Shown here: positions 4,731 to 12,158 of the stretch, in pieces
Layout: each line of letters begins with the position of its first letter
Position numbering within the stretch: the stretch's first letter is position 1
Source of the DNA: Akkermansia muciniphila
GTDB lineage: Bacteria > Verrucomicrobiota > Verrucomicrobiia > Verrucomicrobiales > Akkermansiaceae
NCBI RefSeq assembly: GCF_018709685.1
Contig: NZ_JABDHQ010000004.1
Location: forward strand, 1-64,000
Direction: 5' to 3'
Length of the DNA: 64,000 bases
The notes under the pieces: generated by a model
The model's input: the letters and a program-made list of their open reading frames with translations, nothing else
Told to the model about the DNA's origin: nothing
Database searches by the model: none
Program-made: the position numbers and the translations under genes

Positions 4731-5507
4731 ATGCAGCATACCGATCAAATACAGGCCCTTTCAGAGTTCCTGCTGGAGTACGCCACCACGCTCATGGGCG
4801 CAGGGGTGCATACCAACCGCGCCGTGCGCAACATTTCCCGCATCGCCGCCGCGTACGGGTACAGCGCGGATATGACCATCTTCCAGCGCAACATCACCAT
4901 GAGCCTGATCTGCAAGGATGACGAGACGCTGCGCCGCACCTCCGTCCGGAAGCTGAAGCCCCTGGCGTTCAACCTGAACCTGATCCAGCAGCTTAGTGAA
5001 TTAAGCTGGCTCCCGGTGGACAACAACGTCAGCATTGCGGAGATGGAGCAGGCGTTCAGTTCCATCGTGCGCACCAAAAGGTTTTCCCGCTGGACGGACC
5101 TGCTGCTGGTCAGCGTGGGGAACGCCGCCTTCTGCCGCCTGTTCAACGGGGACCTGTGGGCCATGCTGACTGTGTTTGTGGCCACCCTGCTGGGCTTCCT
5201 GGTCAAGCAGCAGCTCTCCCGGTTGAAGTACAATCCTCTCGGCGTAATCATTCTTTCCGCCTTCGCCGCCTCCATGGCGGCGGCGTGCGCCGTCATTTTC
5301 CAGATCGGCGCCACGCCGCAGATCGCCCTGGCCACCAGCGTCCTGTTCCTGGTGCCCGGCGTGCAAATGATCAATTCCATCATGGACCTGATGCACGGCC
5401 ACATCCTGATGGGGATTTCCCGGGGCGTCCATTCCATCATGATGATTACCTGCATCACCATCGGCCTTTCCGCAACCATGCTTATTGTGGGGGTAAACAG
5501 CTTATGA
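4731..5507 (+). CDS. Threonine/serine exporter, large N-terminal half (YjjP/ThrE type)
   Basis: This 258-residue membrane protein matches the ThrE N-terminal module (DUF1212, YjjP family). It has a soluble N-terminal part (1-120) with the LLEYATTLMGAGVHTNRAVRN segment typical of the family, then about five hydrophobic segments including the conserved VPGVQMINSIMDLMHGH motif. The partner half is encoded immediately downstream with an ATGA overlap, so the two are translationally coupled and probably form one exporter. In E. coli, YjjP/YjjB export succinate; in corynebacteria, the fused ThrE exports threonine and serine. Substrate is therefore unsettled. The neighbourhood (metH, hom, lysC) would suit amino-acid export; the mutase pathway elsewhere in the window would suit succinate. 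Confidence 0.85.
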   Translation: MQHTDQIQALSEFLLEYATTLMGAGVHTNRAVRNISRIAAAYGYSADMTIFQRNITMSLICKDDETLRRTSVRKLKPLAFNLNLIQQLSELSWLPVDNNVSIAEMEQAFSSIVRTKRFSRWTDLLLVSVGNAAFCRLFNGDLWAMLTVFVATLLGFLVKQQLSRLKYNPLGVIILSAFAASMAAACAVIFQIGATPQIALATSVLFLVPGVQMINSIMDLMHGHILMGISRGVHSIMMITCITIGLSATMLIVGVNSL

Positions 5508-6007
5508 GCCCGGATTTCCTCTCCTCCATCCTTCTGGACGGCCTGATGGCCGCCATTGCCGCCACGGGGTTTGCCGTCATCTCCAATCCGCCCAAGCGCG
5601 CCATTGCCGTTTCCGCCCTGCTGGCGGCCATCGGCCACGCCTTCCGGTTTTACATGCTGCATTCCTGGTCCATTGACATTTCCAGCGCCACCTTTATCGC
5701 CGCTTTCACCATAGGCATGCTGGGCGTCATGACGGCCAAGCTGGTGAAGTGCCCGGCGGAGATTTTCGCGTTCCCCTCCCTGCTGCCGATGATTCCGGGC
5801 GTGTACGCGTACAAGACCATCCTGGCCCTGATGCAGTTCATGCAGGAGAACCAGGATACGTCCACCATGAACCGGCTGATCGTGGACATCTGCAAAAACG
5901 GCATCACGGCGTTCTTCATCATCTTCTCCCTGGTGATCGGAGTAGCCATTCCCATGCTGATGTTCAAACGGTTGAGCTATACCCGCATCATCAAGCCGGG
6001 GCACTGA
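5504..6007 (+). CDS. Threonine/serine exporter, small C-terminal half (YjjB type)
   Basis: A 167-residue integral membrane protein of the ThrE C-terminal family (DUF3815, YjjB). It has about five hydrophobic segments and the family motif around FPSLLPMIPGVYAYKTIL. The start ATG overlaps the stop of the preceding gene (ATGA at 5504-5507), which fixes the start and indicates coupling. It acts with the upstream half as a two-part carrier in the inner membrane. A longer frame open upstream overlaps the partner gene and has no family similarity, so it was not used. Confidence 0.85.
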   Translation: MSPDFLSSILLDGLMAAIAATGFAVISNPPKRAIAVSALLAAIGHAFRFYMLHSWSIDISSATFIAAFTIGMLGVMTAKLVKCPAEIFAFPSLLPMIPGVYAYKTILALMQFMQENQDTSTMNRLIVDICKNGITAFFIIFSLVIGVAIPMLMFKRLSYTRIIKPGH

Positions 6008-6102
6008 CCCCCAAACGCCGGAAACGGGGCATTTTTCTCTTGCCAGACTACGCCCCGTGTGGTTTACTACGCCCCGCAACGGCAGGAATGCCAGTGCAAG
6101 AC

Positions 6103-6177
6103 AGCCCCATAGTGTAATTGGTAACACACCTGATTTTGGTTCAGTATTTCTAGGTTCGAGTCCTGGTGGGGCTGCCA
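6103..6177 (+). tRNA. tRNA-Gln (anticodon TTG)
   Basis: Cloverleaf folds by eye: acceptor AGCCCCA/TGGGGCT (7 bp), D stem GTGT/ACAC, anticodon loop TTTTGGT giving TTG, T arm CTAGG-TTCGAGT-CCTGG, discriminator G and an encoded CCA end (6175-6177). The first pair of the anticodon stem (C-T) is mismatched. It reads CAA and, by wobble, CAG. Confidence 0.95.
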
Positions 6178-6183
6178 ATCTTA

Positions 6184-6207
6184 CCCTCCTCTCTGGGAGG
6201 GTTTTTT
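6184..6207 (+). terminator. Rho-independent terminator of tRNA-Gln
   Basis: CCCTCC (6184-6189) pairs with GGAGGG (6196-6201) across a short loop, followed immediately by six T residues. It starts 7 bases after the tRNA CCA end. Confidence 0.85.
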
Positions 6208-6246
6208 ATTGCCCTTTTGTCCTTTCCATGCCTGCCTGCGGTTCAA

Positions 6247-6361
6247 AGCGCCGCAAGGTTCCGGCAGGAACCAGCGTCAGCGAATAAGAGGGGTTCCGGC
6301 CCTCATAAGTTTCCCGAGGGAAACCAGTTTACCCGGCAGGCACGAAGGCCGGAGGCCTTCG
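6247..6361. repeat. Cluster of three perfect palindromes
   Basis: Stem 1: GGTTCC (6257-6262) and GGAACC (6267-6272), loop GGCA. Stem 2: GTTTCCC (6309-6315) and GGGAAAC (6318-6324), loop GA. Stem 3: CGAAGGCC (6343-6350) and GGCCTTCG (6354-6361), loop GGA. None has a T-tract, so they do not look like terminators. The 11-mer AGCGCCGCAAG ahead of stem 1 recurs at 30822-30832 in front of another hairpin. Confidence 0.6.
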
Positions 6362-6422
6362 CTCCCGGCTGGCCGTTTTCCTCTCAAGCCGTGGTAATAT
6401 ATCCTTTCCCCCGTGTTTCCTG

Positions 6423-6540
6423 ATGCCACGCTGCTGGGAACAAGGGTTTGACTCATTCGCCTTTCAGACTCCTTCACCCTGCGGGCTCCATGCTCCGCAC
6501 TCCGTCCAATCGCAACGCGGTTTCCCGGCCCTTATAATAC
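6423..6540 (-). repeat. Dispersed intergenic repeat, copy A
   Basis: On the minus strand this copy begins with the 15-mer AAGGGCCGGGAAACC and ends near a CCCTTGTTCCC segment. The same core and the same order of sub-blocks recur on the plus strand at 58219-58339 and, more diverged, at 56962-57102. It has no coding potential and no transposase is linked to it. Confidence 0.7.
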
Positions 6541-6757
6541 TCCGTGCGGCATACAGAAAAATATTCCAAGTCTATTCCCCTTACCAAAAACGGTATTCGT
6601 CCTTTTCCGGGCTTTCTTTTCATACCTGCCGTTCTTTTATGTGCCCCTTTTCCATCCCACCTGTTTCCATGCCATCCGGACGGCGGCCTCACTGCCCTTC
6701 CGGAACGGTAAAAGCTCTTGCGTTACAGGGATTTTTTTGCATAATCGCCCCGCAGGA

Positions 6758-8086
6758 ATGACGGAAAAACCTATACAACTTGGGCTTGCTGGGCTGGGAA
6801 CGGTCGGTTCCGGCGTGTATGAAACGCTGTGCCGCAACCATGCCCTCCTGGAAGCCCGGAGCAAGATTCCTTTCAGGATCAAGCGCATCGCCGTGCGCAA
6901 TCTGGAAAAACCCAGGGAAACCGCCGTTCCACGGGAATTGCTGACGGACGACTGGAACGACCTGGTGAATGATCCGGAAATTGACATCGTCATTGAGCTG
7001 ATCGGCGGCACGCGCCAGGCTTACGACTTGGTGACGCTGGCCCTGCGCGCCGGAAAGCCTGTCGTCACGGGGAACAAGGCCCTTCTGGCGGAGTACGGAG
7101 CGGAAATTTTCAAGCTTTCCGCGGAGATGGGCACACCCATTTATTTTGAAGCTTCTGCCGGGGGCGGCATCCCGATTATCCAGAGCCTTCAGAATTCCCT
7201 GATCTGCAACCATATCAGTTCCATTGTGGGCATCATCAACGGGACGTCCAATTACATCCTTTCCGCCATGGGGGAACACGGGGCGGATTATGCGGACGCC
7301 CTGGTCCAGGCCCAGAAGCTGGGCTTTGCGGAGGAAGACCCCTCCCTGGACGTGAACGGCTGGGACGCCGCCCACAAGGCCCTCATCCTGGCGATGCTGG
7401 CGTACGGCACCACCATTTCCCCGGACAAGATTTACGTGAGCGGCATTGAGAACATCACCAGCCGCGATTTTGAGTTCGCCAAGAAGCTGGGCTATACGAT
7501 CAAGCTTCTCGTCGTCATCCGCTACCATGAAGGACAGGAAGACGCCCTGGAACTGCGCGTTCAGCCCTGCTTTGTCCATGACTGGCACATCCTGGCCTCC
7601 GTGAACGGCGTGTTCAACGCCATTTCCGTCACGGGAGACATTGTAGGGGAAACGCTGTTCTACGGACGCGGAGCGGGCAAGAACCCCACGGCCTCCGCCG
7701 TCATCAGCGACGTGATCACCGCCATGCGCGAAAGCCGCTATCCGGAGTACCATACGGGCTTCAATCCTTACGCCAAGTCCTGCGGAGTCATGCACATCAA
7801 CGACACGGTGACTCCGTATTACGTCCGCTTCCAGGTGGCGGACCAGCCCGGCGTCATTGCGGAAATAGCACGCATCCTGGCAACCTTCGGCATCGGCATT
7901 TCCGCCACCTCTTCCGCCCCCAGCCACATTGCTGAAAACGGGGAACCCTGGAATGACCTGGTCTTTATCCTGCACACGTGCCCGTGGGGCCAGCTCCAGA
8001 AGGCCCTGGCGGAAATTGCGCGCATTTCCTGCGTGGCGGCGGATCCCCGCGTGCTCCGCATTGAACATCTTCTTCCTCAATCCTAA
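6758..8086 (+). CDS. hom: Homoserine dehydrogenase
   Basis: NAD(P)H-dependent reduction of aspartate semialdehyde to homoserine, the branch towards threonine and methionine. The 442-residue product has an N-terminal Rossmann motif (GLAGLGTVGSGV, about residues 8-19), the catalytic domain with NGTSNYIL and EEDPSLDVNGWDAAHK, and a C-terminal ACT domain (from about 350, RFQVADQPGVIAEIA) expected to sense threonine. This start matches the family N-terminus; the frame stays open 39 codons upstream without similarity. It lies 21 bp before lysC, so the two probably form an operon feeding the same pathway, with MetH consuming homocysteine further down. Confidence 0.95.
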   Translation: MTEKPIQLGLAGLGTVGSGVYETLCRNHALLEARSKIPFRIKRIAVRNLEKPRETAVPRELLTDDWNDLVNDPEIDIVIELIGGTRQAYDLVTLALRAGKPVVTGNKALLAEYGAEIFKLSAEMGTPIYFEASAGGGIPIIQSLQNSLICNHISSIVGIINGTSNYILSAMGEHGADYADALVQAQKLGFAEEDPSLDVNGWDAAHKALILAMLAYGTTISPDKIYVSGIENITSRDFEFAKKLGYTIKLLVVIRYHEGQEDALELRVQPCFVHDWHILASVNGVFNAISVTGDIVGETLFYGRGAGKNPTASAVISDVITAMRESRYPEYHTGFNPYAKSCGVMHINDTVTPYYVRFQVADQPGVIAEIARILATFGIGISATSSAPSHIAENGEPWNDLVFILHTCPWGQLQKALAEIARISCVAADPRVLRIEHLLPQS

Positions 8087-8107: not shown

Positions 8108-9325
8108 ATGGCTCTTATCGTTCAAAAATTCGGAGGCAGCTCCGTCGGCACCATTGACCGCATCCGCAATGTGGCGCACCGCATCCATGATACCGCCAGG
8201 GACGGCAACCAGGTGGTAGCCGTCGTTTCCGCCATGAGCGGCGTGACGGACAAGCTGATCAGCCTTGCCAGGGAACTGTCCGAATCCCCCTGTGAACGCG
8301 AACTGGACGTGCTAATGGCCACCGGCGAGCAGCAGTCCATCGCCCTGCTCTGCATGGCCCTTCACGAGCTGGGGGAAAAAGCCATGTCCTTCACGGGGGC
8401 GCAGGCGGGCATCACCACCTTCGGCAGCCATACGCGCGGACGCATCCACAGCATCAACCCCACGCTGATGAACAAGTACCTGCAGGAAGGCAACATCCTC
8501 ATCTGCGCCGGCTTCCAGGGGGCTACGGAGGAAGGAATGGTCCAGACGCTGGGCCGCGGGGGGTCTGACCTTTCCGCCATCGCCATCGCGGCCGCGCTGA
8601 AGGCGGACGTGTGCCAGATTTTTACAGATGTGGACGGCGTGTACACCTGCGACCCCCGCGTGGTGAAAGACGCCAAGAAAATACAAACCCTTTCATATGA
8701 CGAGATGCTGGAGATGGCCTCCAACGGTTCCAAGGTGATGCAGTCGCGCTCCGTGGAATTCGCCAAAAAATTCGGCGTCGTCTTTGAAGTTCGCAACTCC
8801 ATGAACAACAACCCCGGTACAATCGTGCAAGAAGAAACTCCCTCCATGGAAGCCGTCGTCATCCGCGGCATCTCCATTGACCGCAACCAGGCCCGCGTCA
8901 CCATCACCGGCATTCCGGACCAGATCGGCTATACGGCCCAGGTGCTGGGCGCCCTGGCTGAGGCGGAAATCAACCTGGACATGATTCTGGCCAATACCGC
9001 GCATGACGGCTACGTCCGCCAGTCCTTCACCATGCCGTCCAATGAACTGGGCCGCGCCCAGGCTGCCCTCAAGCCGGTCATGGCCGCCCTGGGCTCCACC
9101 GTGAAGGTGGAAACGGAAGCGGGCCTTGCCAAGCTTTCCCTGGTGGGCATCGGCATGCGTTCCCATTCCGGCGTGGGCGCCACCGCGTTCAAGGCCCTGG
9201 CGGACGCCAACATCAAGACCGGCATGATTTCCACCTCGGAGATCAAGATTGCCGTGATGGTGGACGAATCAGACATTGAGGAAGCGGCCCGGGTGGTGCA
9301 CAGGGCGTTCAATCTGGGCGTTTAA
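8108..9325 (+). CDS. lysC: Aspartate kinase
   Basis: Phosphorylates aspartate in the first step of the lysine, threonine and methionine pathway. The 405-residue monofunctional enzyme shows the KFGGSSVG nucleotide-binding motif (residues 7-14), the FTDVDGVYTCDPRVV segment in the kinase domain, and two C-terminal ACT domains including SLVGIGMRSHSGVGA. Length fits the alpha-subunit class. It is cotranscribed with hom and closed by a strong terminator at 9345-9376. Feedback control by lysine and/or threonine is expected from the ACT domains but cannot be read from sequence. Confidence 0.97.
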   Translation: MALIVQKFGGSSVGTIDRIRNVAHRIHDTARDGNQVVAVVSAMSGVTDKLISLARELSESPCERELDVLMATGEQQSIALLCMALHELGEKAMSFTGAQAGITTFGSHTRGRIHSINPTLMNKYLQEGNILICAGFQGATEEGMVQTLGRGGSDLSAIAIAAALKADVCQIFTDVDGVYTCDPRVVKDAKKIQTLSYDEMLEMASNGSKVMQSRSVEFAKKFGVVFEVRNSMNNNPGTIVQEETPSMEAVVIRGISIDRNQARVTITGIPDQIGYTAQVLGALAEAEINLDMILANTAHDGYVRQSFTMPSNELGRAQAALKPVMAALGSTVKVETEAGLAKLSLVGIGMRSHSGVGATAFKALADANIKTGMISTSEIKIAVMVDESDIEEAARVVHRAFNLGV

Positions 9326-9344
9326 CACTTCCCCCTTTTTCAGG

Positions 9345-9376
9345 ACCGGTTCACGGAAACGTGAACCGGTTTTTTC
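9345..9376 (+). terminator. Terminator of hom-lysC
   Basis: An 11-bp perfect stem, ACCGGTTCACG (9345-9355) with CGTGAACCGGT (9360-9370), capped by a GAAA tetraloop and followed by a T-tract to 9375. Confidence 0.9.
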
Positions 9377-9380
9377 ATGT

Positions 9381-9407
9381 ATTCCCCCTGTCCGGGACAG
9401 GGGGAAT
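9381..9407 (-). terminator. Perfect inverted repeat, possible minus-strand terminator
   Basis: ATTCCCCCTGTC (9381-9392) pairs with GACAGGGGGAAT (9396-9407), 12 bp with a 3-base loop. It lies downstream of the minus-strand gene ending at 9519, but no T-run directly follows on that strand. It could end that transcript or insulate it from lysC. Confidence 0.45.
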
Positions 9408-9518
9408 GCTGAAATACAAAAAGGCCTGCTTCCTGAAAGGAACGGGATGGGGGATGAAACATGCCCGGGCAACAAGGAAGGGCTTGCCGGAAAGAGGGAG
9501 AGAAAAAAGAGTAAGACG

Positions 9519-10118
9519 TTATTTGCCGGAAGAGGGCTGGAAACGGGCGGCCTCCGATTCTGCGGTGATCCTGGCGGGTTCGATATGAAGGAGCTTCCTT
9601 ATAGCCCGGCCCCGGTCGCTCTCCGTCACCGGGAAGTAAATGACGTCGTCTCCCAGATGATAGGAATCCAGGCCGGGGATATTGCCCGCGGGGGCAAAAG
9701 ATTCCGGCGTGTCCGGCAGTTTTTTTACCTCCTTGGAGGAGGCGAGGATATAATACATATAATTACCGGAATACAGTTCCGTTTTAGGAGGGCTGCCCGG
9801 TTCCGGTTTAGAGAAGCTGACCGCAGAGTGTTTATTGGCGGCCCAGCTCCACTGGATCAAAGCCTCCACGGGAATGTCTCCCCGGAGAGACTGGACGACG
9901 CGGGCGTAGTACGTTATCTCCTGGTCCGTTTCTACCGTTTTATAAATAATAACCGCCAGGAGAATGTCGCTTTTCCGCAGGTGCATGGCCGGGCTGTAAA
10001 GAGAAGCATCTCCGGCTACTTCAGCCTGCGTGGGAAAGGAGGGGGAAGATGGCGCCGCGCTGGCCGATACCGTTATCAGTCCGGAAAGCAAACAATAAAA
10101 GAGTGGGTTTTTAACCAT
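9519..10118 (-). CDS. Secreted protein of unknown function
   Basis: A 199-residue product with a clear N-terminal signal peptide (hydrophobic core FYCLLSGLITVSASA, cleavage near residue 22). The mature part has no recognised domain; it is moderately charged, with no cysteine after the signal peptide and a YSGNYMYYIL beta-like stretch near residue 120. It lies 92 bp downstream of the PA14-Tae4-like amidase on the same strand, but a strong terminator stands between them, so it needs its own promoter. Tae4 immunity proteins are also small and carry signal peptides, so an immunity role is possible; this is inference from position only. Confidence 0.65.
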   Translation of the reverse strand: MVKNPLFYCLLSGLITVSASAAPSSPSFPTQAEVAGDASLYSPAMHLRKSDILLAVIIYKTVETDQEITYYARVVQSLRGDIPVEALIQWSWAANKHSAVSFSKPEPGSPPKTELYSGNYMYYILASSKEVKKLPDTPESFAPAGNIPGLDSYHLGDDVIYFPVTESDRGRAIRKLLHIEPARITAESEAARFQPSSGK

Positions 10119-10154
10119 AGAAATGGGTAGATTACTTTCTTTCCCATTATGTTC

Positions 10155-10198
10155 AAAAACGGAGCGAATGCTTTAAAAGCATCCGCTCCGTAAAAAAA
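10155..10198 (-). terminator. Terminator of the PA14-Tae4-like gene
   Basis: ACGGAGCG (10159-10166) pairs with CGCTCCGT (10184-10191), and the inner AATGC/GCAT extends the stem. Read on the minus strand, the hairpin sits between a seven-T run and a TTTTTG tract, so it may work in both directions. Confidence 0.85.
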
Positions 10199-10210
10199 GA
10201 AGTTGATGAA

Positions 10211-11149
10211 TTATTCAGCGTCTTTCAATGTCGCCCGATTGATTAACCAAATGGGGCCAGTCAGGAAACTGCCAATGGAGATGTTGTCTCCCGGACACAT
10301 GCCTACGTGGCCCTTTCCGGCAAACACAATAATGTCGCCCGGCTGCGGGCTGCAATAGCCTGTATCCTGGCCGTCGGCATAGTCAGGGTCGCCCAGGAGC
10401 TTTTGCACATAAGCAGCCATGTCCCTTGCACGGGTGATAACGTGGGTTTTACCTCCCAGCGCATCGGCGTTCGCCTTGTCCCCGATGAGCTCCGCTCCTG
10501 CTTCGTTCTTCAAGTCCTTACCGAAGGAACTCAACGCGATACTCATCCGCAAGGCGCAGCTGTTATAATAGTTGCGCAATTGCTCAGGAACATTGTCCTC
10601 AATTTCCTTCAGGTGAGCCTGATAGAGCCACCCTCCGATATAGGACCAAACCTGTCCGGGATTGGGCATGGTGACATAATCCACCACATTGTAGCATTTC
10701 AGCAGTTTCTGGGCATCCTCCGTCTTCCAGAGATTGACGGGGGCATCAATTTCCCAGAGTTCCAGGTCACCCCCATCCATTTCAGGAACGAATTCTTCCG
10801 CATTGGGATAGGGTGCAATAGAATCCGGAACCTTCAGGTTTTCATGATGGAGCTTGACGTAATGGTAACCTTGCTTGAGTTCCTTCTTGCCCTCTGCCTT
10901 CTTGGATGAGTTGCCGTCCTTGAGTTCCACCACTCTCTGGTTGTCTATTTCCAGGTAACCGTTGTCGTCCATCTGAATGGTAAAGGCACATTCCTTGTCA
11001 AAGGGAACACGGATGTATCCTTCCCAGTCATGGACGCCGGTTTCTTCCGTCTTGTGCCAGACAATTTTGGGAGCGTCTTTTTTCTTCACCTTGTAACGAG
11101 GATTATTTTCAGCGTCGAGCGGGTGAAATGGTATAGTTGATATAGCCAT
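10211..11149 (-). CDS. PA14-like domain fused to a Tae4-like peptidoglycan amidase
   Basis: 312 residues in two parts. Residues about 35-135 look like a PA14 fold (MDDNGYLEIDNQRVV motif), a carbohydrate-binding module. Residues about 185-305 match the Tae4 type VI amidase family: NSCALRMSIAL with candidate nucleophile C198, PGDIIVFAGKGHVGM with H281, and D288. Tae4 enzymes cut the D-Glu-mDAP peptide bond of peptidoglycan. There is no signal peptide or membrane segment, and no type VI secretion gene is in the window, so the export route is unknown. Base composition is more AT-rich than nearby genes, hinting at transfer. The spacer upstream carries a small hairpin (GAACTGA/TCAGTTC, 11184-11201). 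Confidence 0.75.
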   Translation of the reverse strand: MAISTIPFHPLDAENNPRYKVKKKDAPKIVWHKTEETGVHDWEGYIRVPFDKECAFTIQMDDNGYLEIDNQRVVELKDGNSSKKAEGKKELKQGYHYVKLHHENLKVPDSIAPYPNAEEFVPEMDGGDLELWEIDAPVNLWKTEDAQKLLKCYNVVDYVTMPNPGQVWSYIGGWLYQAHLKEIEDNVPEQLRNYYNSCALRMSIALSSFGKDLKNEAGAELIGDKANADALGGKTHVITRARDMAAYVQKLLGDPDYADGQDTGYCSPQPGDIIVFAGKGHVGMCPGDNISIGSFLTGPIWLINRATLKDAE

Positions 11150-11542
11150 AGTGTTTATGTTTTCAATTCATTTATTGTTGAATGAACTGACCATTCAGTT
11201 CCTGGCCACCTTGAAAGATTTCCCGCTCCCCATCAACACGTTCAACGCGTATTCGGCAGGCAGGGAAAGGGCTGAAACGGCGCAGGAATCAGGTGAAAAT
11301 AAAGGGCATCAAAAATACAAGCATTGATGGTCAATAATTAAACATTCCACTCTCTCCGCCCGGGAAGAAGTAAATGCGCCTTCCGCCCGTACATCCCGGA
11401 ATTCCGTCAAACCGCTTCCAATACAAAATATAAGAAGCGCCTCCAGAAGGAATATTCCTCTCCGAACTATTGACGAGTGTCCATGGGCAGGGAATTGGTT
11501 ATTTTCCCCGTAACCATGCAGAGGCCCGCAAAGGCAATTCCT
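11150..11542. other. Intergenic region without a gene
   Basis: AT-rich next to the amidase start. It holds one 7-bp inverted repeat (GAACTGA 11184-11190, TCAGTTC 11195-11201) about 35 bp upstream of that start, which could be an operator or a leader hairpin. Nothing else is recognisable in the rest, including the stretch after the lipoprotein gene that ends at 11543. Confidence 0.5.
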
Positions 11543-12055
11543 TTACTGAACCCGTATCGTCTGCTCAATCAGTTCGTTCAGGCGCGGCGCGGAAAGGGCG
11601 CCCACCATTTCCTTCAGCTTCATTCCCTCCAGGTACAGGAGCGTCAGGGGGACGGCTTCCAGCCCGTACTTGCGGGCCACGTCCGGATAGGCATCCGCGT
11701 CAATCAGCACGGCAAACGCCTTGCCGTCCTGCGCCGCAGCGTAGGATTTGACCGCCTGGACGTAGTCCATGGCAGGGCGGCTCCACGGAGCGTAAAAGAC
11801 AATCAGCACCTTGCGGCCTGAAAGTTCCGTCAACTGCCGCATGTCCTCCCCCTTGTAATCCATCCACGCAGGCGCCTTTTTCACGGGCGTGGCGGGCGGA
11901 AGAACTTTTCTGGGAGGATCAAACGTTCTTTCCAGGGGACGCGGAGCAGGCTTCTTCTCCGCATAACGGGCGCGCCGTTCACTGGAATCGTCGCATCCGG
12001 TCAGACCGGCCATCATCAGCAAAGCGCTGACCCCTATGAACAAGCCCTGTTTCAT
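11543..12055 (-). CDS. Thioredoxin-fold lipoprotein lacking the CxxC motif
   Basis: 170 residues starting at MKQGLFIG. The signal peptide ends in a lipobox (LTGC, C21), so the protein is a membrane-anchored lipoprotein. A Pro-rich linker (35-62) leads to a thioredoxin-like fold (about 65-168): beta strand KVLIVFYAPW, the cis-proline segment GLEAVPLTLLY, and a C-terminal helix. The redox site is WSRPA (91-95) where thioredoxins have WCGPC, so both active cysteines are gone and disulfide chemistry is unlikely. It may act as a chaperone-like or scaffolding member of the TlpA/Trx superfamily. The frame stays open 28 codons upstream, but the lipobox geometry supports this start. Confidence 0.75.
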   Translation of the reverse strand: MKQGLFIGVSALLMMAGLTGCDDSSERRARYAEKKPAPRPLERTFDPPRKVLPPATPVKKAPAWMDYKGEDMRQLTELSGRKVLIVFYAPWSRPAMDYVQAVKSYAAAQDGKAFAVLIDADAYPDVARKYGLEAVPLTLLYLEGMKLKEMVGALSAPRLNELIEQTIRVQ

Positions 12056-12158
12056 TCCGCCGGCAAGTATGCCCGGGAAGGGCAAATTTGCAAGACTGAA
12101 ACCCGTCCCGCTTTTCACGTTGCCCCGGGCCCCCTCCATCTGTTATGGTAGCCGTTGA

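Follow-up and report, generated by a model that had tools for sequence, protein, structure and literature searches.

A PA14-Tae4 protein and its signal-peptide neighbour as a candidate effector-immunity module outside type VI secretion in Akkermansia

Colicin-type bacteriocins are made with no signal peptide, their toxin and immunity genes are transcribed separately, and they are released by lysis. Some of these traits recur in a gene pair that we describe here from a 64,000-nucleotide stretch of Akkermansia muciniphila DNA (positions 1 to 64,000 of NZ_JABDHQ010000004.1, hereafter the window), which lies on contig C34 of a 2.86-Mb genome. The first gene encodes a putative toxin with a PA14-like N-terminal half and a Tae4-like amidase half; the second encodes a small protein with a signal peptide (Table 1). 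The closest described counterparts are the Tae4-Tai4 pairs of the type VI secretion system (T6SS), such as Serratia Ssp1 and Salmonella Tae4, with which the window pair shares the Tae4 fold, a Cys-His pair and an adjacent signal-peptide partner. It differs from them in that the toxin carries a fused PA14 domain and has no Asp at the known third catalytic positions, a terminator stands between the genes, the T6SS sheath protein VipB is absent from carrier genomes, and the partner's model is beta-rich and NTR-like, whereas Tai4 is purely helical according to the accessible part of PMC3695027. Polymorphic toxins (RHS proteins and T6SS effectors of the RIX, MIX and FIX types) likewise join one N-terminal domain to varied C-terminal parts and varied signal-peptide neighbours, but here PA14 is the domain in common, no T6SS is found and two of the types have the same upstream element. 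The MhPA14 and MpPA14 domains of RTX adhesins have the same fold (6xac, Z 10.6) and, in MhPA14, an aligned Asp pair (Asp136-Asp137); theirs stand in a type-1-secreted adhesin, ours at the head of a signal-less putative toxin. With colicins the pair shares the lack of a signal peptide, separate transcription of toxin and immunity genes and possibly lysis release, but the domains are unrelated and neither a lysis gene nor SOS control has been shown for it. In the available portion of the polymorphic-toxin survey PMC3482391 there is no mention of PA14, Akkermansia, TIMP or netrin, and none of the literature excerpts searched describes signal-less toxin-immunity pairs for this genus. We conclude that the two genes probably form an effector-immunity module, which would belong to a bacteriocin-like branch of the Akkermansia polymorphic toxins, independent of the T6SS and best read as partly prophage-borne.

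The two-domain architecture had been proposed in the original prediction, which was made from the sequence alone, and both halves are borne out by profile search and structure comparison. Against Pfam, the Tae4 profile PF14113 matches the toxin with 29.2 bits (E 1.1e-6; cut-off 27), the match spanning just profile positions 1-54 of 125 (toxin residues 194-255), and in a six-frame scan of the assembly the toxin is its single match. The PA14 profile PF07691 scores 23.0 bits (E 7.6e-5), one bit below its cut-off of 24, which relatives at loci L126 (27.7 bits) and L068 (29.2 bits) exceed. The AlphaFold model of the toxin has a mean pLDDT of 84.8, with the weak stretch confined to about residues 150-200, and was compared with PDB chains by Foldseek and VIA-align. 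PA14 matches cover residues 22-136 (6qe7: Z 12.4, rmsd 2.2, 106 residues), and Tae4 chains align by VIA-align with residues 139-304 at Z 9.5-10.6 (4bi4: Z 10.6, rmsd 3.8, 143 aligned; 4j30: Z 9.7; 4hfl: Z 9.6); the Foldseek top list represents the PA14-type half alone. Of the three candidate catalytic residues, C198 and H281 stand, being invariant across the 10 relatives aligned in A3, while D288 (His+7) was rejected as the third residue because it is not conserved among them. Published Tae4 enzymes are described, in the sections consulted, with a third Asp at His+11 or His+2 (PMC6277958; mutants bearing on it in PMC3695027); the toxin has I292 and G283 at these positions. In the 6m8m chain the residues aligned with D61-D62 are 136-137, and Asp136-Asp137 of MhPA14 are reported as a D-cis-D calcium pair in the part of PMC6650083 available. 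The toxin was also correctly taken to lack a signal peptide, as judged by eye. Searches of NCBIfam and PADLOC returned no families and PHROGs no match for either window protein, and tblastn of phage records with the whole toxin or its N-domain gave no match.

The downstream gene had been put forward as a possible immunity gene, and because its relatives adjoin the toxin at 21 of the 23 PA14-Tae4 loci this guess, which is one from sequence, is strengthened. With profile A4 these relatives were found 85-153 bp from the toxin gene; 19 follow it on its own strand and two are convergent with it (L012 and L064, where L064 matches weakly at E 3e-7). The profile drew rows from nine of the 23 loci; the 12 positive loci outside it are independent. 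Matches occur genus-wide in 14 of 76 Akkermansia genomes (32 rows), including some away from any PA14-Tae4 gene (in G004, G067 and G083, with one in G013 on C2 and one in G097 on C30), and copies are duplicated at L011 (three), L012 (two), L077 (two in one frame) and also L027. At L133:1855-3261 (G083) two NTR-type immunity genes lie divergent from a PA14-RHS gene with no PA14-Tae4 gene there. L138:3016-5270 (G004) looks like an immunity island: after the remnant of a PA14 toxin locus come signal-peptide genes together with a double immunity gene of NTR type. Pfam gave the immunity protein no family at E<=1, and hence no Tai4 profile match. Its model (pLDDT 73.2) is beta-rich, not the purely helical fold of Tai4, and resembles C345C domains (E 1.3e-4, Z 8.4), which we take to be members of the NTR fold (OB-type), and TIMP-1 (E 1.6e-2, prob 0.99). 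Tai4 structures are not among the fold matches listed for it, an absence that alone proves nothing.

Between the two genes the expected terminator is present in the window, as a hairpin followed by U's. When 13 toxin-immunity gaps were folded, 11 held a significant hairpin (z <= -2.66), the others being L008 (z -0.75) and L029 (z -1.17); a U-run 3' of the hairpin was seen by eye in all but one (12/13; exception L011), and the stem sequences vary from locus to locus. A simple consensus terminator scanner did not list the window hairpin.

Upstream of the toxin, a block of about 100 bp is common to chromosomal and prophage copies (blastn, 76 genomes), and its outer part also precedes other PA14-domain genes. 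From these matches we derived the element pattern ACRYRTTRARCRTGTTG, with the reversed pattern as control. It has 21 matches in 11 of the 76 genomes and the control none. All but one precede a PA14-domain gene (12 PA14-Tae4 genes and eight of a second type described below), and the remaining site, in G004, precedes a remnant and then an immunity match. Because some of the sites went into building the pattern, the test lies in this exclusivity and not in the count. In 17 of the 20 sites the distance from the element's first base to the start codon is 95-101 bp, and in a frameshifted copy (G081) it is 90 bp; two copies, in G082 (C82) and G083, have no in-frame ATG there. The genome of the window has only two element sites within 3 mismatches. 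Palindromes related to a second inverted repeat, between element and toxin, were found upstream of other PA14-Tae4 genes.

Table 1. Coordinates of the features discussed (window positions unless a locus is named)
Feature	Location	Strand	Remarks
PA14-Tae4 toxin gene	10211..11149	-	intact open reading frame (ORF), 312 aa, ATG start; no signal peptide by eye
PA14-like domain, N-terminal, residues 1-138	10736..11149	-	6qe7 Z 12.4; 6xac Z 10.6
D61-D62 codons	10964-10969	-	by alignment the counterpart of the D-cis-D calcium pair in MhPA14; invariant in 10 rows
Tae4-like NlpC/P60 domain, C-terminal, residues 140-304	10238..10732	-	Pfam and structure alignment
C198 codon	10556-10558	-	within Tae4-like domain
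H281 codon	10307-10309	-	within Tae4-like domain
Immunity gene candidate	9519..10118	-	199 aa; signal peptide by eye; NTR/TIMP-like model
15-pair hairpin then U's (intrinsic terminator)	10159..10191	-	gap minimum free energy -31.8 kcal/mol, z -6.63
17-bp near-palindromic element	11234..11250	-	first base 101 bp before first base of toxin start codon
Second inverted repeat upstream of toxin	11184..11201	-	7-bp arms, 4-bp spacer
Second PA14 type, two tandem 545-aa proteins	L126:2716-4350, 5169-6803		
Second PA14 type, 406 aa, same genome (C10)	L124:2597-3814		
Aspartate kinase gene	8108-9325	opposite to toxin	name from reading the ORF
Thioredoxin-like gene	11543-12139	same as toxin	Pfam
tRNA-Gln (ttg)	6103-6177	+	

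Two further kinds of protein carry the PA14-like N-domain. The second type, of 406-545 aa, has PA14 near its N-terminus and signal-peptide genes downstream; a HENHH motif was seen by eye in the copy read, and its C-terminal part matches no Pfam domain. The third is of RHS type: in all 16 large or fragmentary RHS-type ORFs examined, profile A3 places the domain within the N-terminal ~140 residues (E 2.5e-17 to 3.8e-9). Six of these loci were scanned against Pfam, and all match RHS repeats (L066 below the cut-off), with the RHS core model matched by two. The PA14-headed RHS proteins (L066-L068, L070, L071, L127-L137) are without a signal peptide, and many of the copies are in G004 and G083. The Tae4, 545-aa and RHS types thus share a PA14-like N-domain and have adjacent signal-peptide genes; with a common N-domain, varied C-terminal parts and putative toxins among them, they qualify by sequence as polymorphic toxins. 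None of this wider system, which takes in the second type, RHS proteins headed by PA14, copies in prophages and the common upstream element, was within view of the original prediction.

Among the 76 Akkermansia genomes, profile A1 matches 19 and the Tae4 part is covered in 12, at 19 loci. G071 has only a PA14-Tae4 remnant, and at L065:6604-7164 in this genome remnants of toxin and immunity gene occupy the aspartate kinase-thioredoxin site, as the pair does in the window. IMG/VR contributes four further loci (L027-L030), counted without de-duplication against the genome loci, which makes the 23 loci; L021, the same place as L020 in another assembly, was left out of the counts. A scan of genome contigs with a single protein gave no relatives, and one with the profile 10 loci; four of these were set aside, namely three short Tae4-like matches outside the phylum (L023, L024, L026) and a 2085-aa Prevotella ORF (L025). 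In a phylum sample of 387 genomes, in many of which the best candidates alone were scored, Tae4-covering matches are confined to Akkermansia and the others are mostly to the PA14 domain only. Against its closest relative the toxin has a dN/dS of 0.08, which indicates purifying selection; by the Nei-Gojobori method toxins gave 0.07-0.15 in five pairs and immunity proteins 0.21-0.27 in four of five pairs, the fifth being saturated. L074 and L027 have immunity proteins 90% identical but toxins only 66% identical, and this suggests reassortment between toxin and immunity genes.

Phage genes stand beside several copies: a tape measure gene (L073, L077), a terminase large subunit (L062), a terminase small subunit about 4 kb from the L017 copy, an exonuclease (L029), a replication initiation gene (L030) and a methyltransferase/ParB-like gene (L064); at L027 a phage tail match falls just below its cut-off (23.5 against 23.7). 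The PA14-like domains of L018 and L027 weakly match phrog_773, a phage major head protein family. The pair could accordingly be a prophage lysis or virion module, made of a signal-less endolysin-like amidase and a periplasmic lysis inhibitor and left in chromosomes as relics, as the phage genes at L073, L077, L062, L017, L029 and L030 would suggest. We consider this improbable, although it survives better than the other alternatives. No phage gene is in view, by reading, near the window copy, the C3 copy or several others, which are under purifying selection; arrays and orphans of immunity genes do not fit a lysis cassette; and the PA14 N-domain is common to RHS proteins and to the second type, whose signal-peptide neighbours are its own.

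Akkermansia is a mucin degrader. The PA14-Tae4 protein might therefore be a housekeeping or colonisation enzyme, with PA14 resting on mucin glycans, the NlpC/P60 domain remodelling the cell's own wall and the partner acting as regulator; fucose and glucose-type sugars are ligands of PA14 lectins, according to the accessible text of PMC8092209. This is quite unlikely in view of the patchy distribution (12/76 genomes), the degraded copies at L078, L063 and L065, the immunity-type duplications and orphans, and a toxin made without a signal peptide.

The absence of a T6SS, remarked on in the original prediction for the stretch in view, extends to the whole genome of the window, in which TssK (searched in this genome only), VipB/TssC, the phage-type sheath PF04984 and the Phage_base_V spike all gave no match. 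That the toxin is delivered by a non-T6SS contractile tail (an extracellular contractile injection system or a tailocin), with PA14 as docking domain, could be proposed from G013, which has matches to a spike (E 2.1e-23) and a sheath on one contig, and from the weak resemblance to phrog_773; it is nevertheless a very doubtful proposal, because the sheath is present in two of 76 genomes and one of 12 carriers and the spike in six of 59 genomes and one of nine carriers covered, G013 in both cases. VipB/TssC matches strongly in 13 of 76 genomes (G029, G011, G062, G063, G094, G074, G070, G020, G008, G026, G025, G014, G096), none of which is among the 12 carriers; a T6SS is thus present in part of the genus. 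Mutual exclusion as a signal was rejected, since the chance overlap expected is only about 2 (p about 0.09, by hand, relatedness ignored). That the toxin is a classic T6SS cargo, its T6SS overlooked or supplied in trans, agrees with Tae4 being a T6SS effector family and with the VipB genomes, but with VipB in 0/12 carriers, PA14-Tae4 in 0/13 VipB genomes (a difference in overlap that is not significant) and no TssK, sheath or spike in its own genome it is strongly disfavoured and the least probable explanation of all.

Several observations weigh against our preferred reading of an effector-immunity module. At L062 and L063 the partner, by eye, is a different, convergent signal-peptide gene. 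The model of the immunity protein is of modest quality (pLDDT 73, with a Z of 8.4 near the tool's non-specific level), and no credible relative came from searching PDB sequences with the immunity profile. It had been suggested that the immunity gene could have its own promoter; while the gene and the 15-pair hairpin before it exist, no sigma-70-like promoter was found in 9000-11600 (2.1 expected), and so none for this gene. Seven of the 19 PA14-Tae4 genome loci lack the element (G013 three times, G097, G072 twice, G061), and so do several genes of the second type, among them the copy on C10 of the window's own genome. No export or entry machinery was identified, and G013 does pair its spike with a sheath. 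Most loci of the window lineage lie outside prophages, and for this reason lysis release is weakly based.

Under the effector-immunity reading, the toxin, lacking a signal peptide, would be produced in the cytoplasm, its expression governed by a dedicated upstream operator common to the second PA14 type, and lysis, including prophage lysis, would be the leading candidate for its release. The PA14 domain, with its calcium D-D pair kept, may anchor it on glycans of the target cell or matrix, and the Tae4 domain (C198/H281) would cut peptidoglycan stem peptides after reaching the periplasm. The immunity protein, presumably transcribed separately behind the terminator and exported via its signal peptide, would block the enzyme in the periplasm of the producer and its kin. 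A bolder version is conceivable, and we hold it tentatively: the signal-less PA14 would be the trafficking module of a whole Akkermansia delivery system for Tae4, HExxH-like and RHS toxins that uses neither a T6SS nor a known contractile machine, a dedicated regulator would read the 17-bp element, and amidase immunity would be of NTR/TIMP-like type.

Akkermansia is a leading gut mucosal symbiont. If the effector-immunity reading is true, it would possess a Tae4 enzyme acting outside the T6SS, a lectin domain serving as a common toxin N-terminus and a new immunity fold for the Tae4 enzyme family. The short element, marking PA14 toxin genes almost exclusively in the 76 genomes, would then offer a genetic handle on these toxins.
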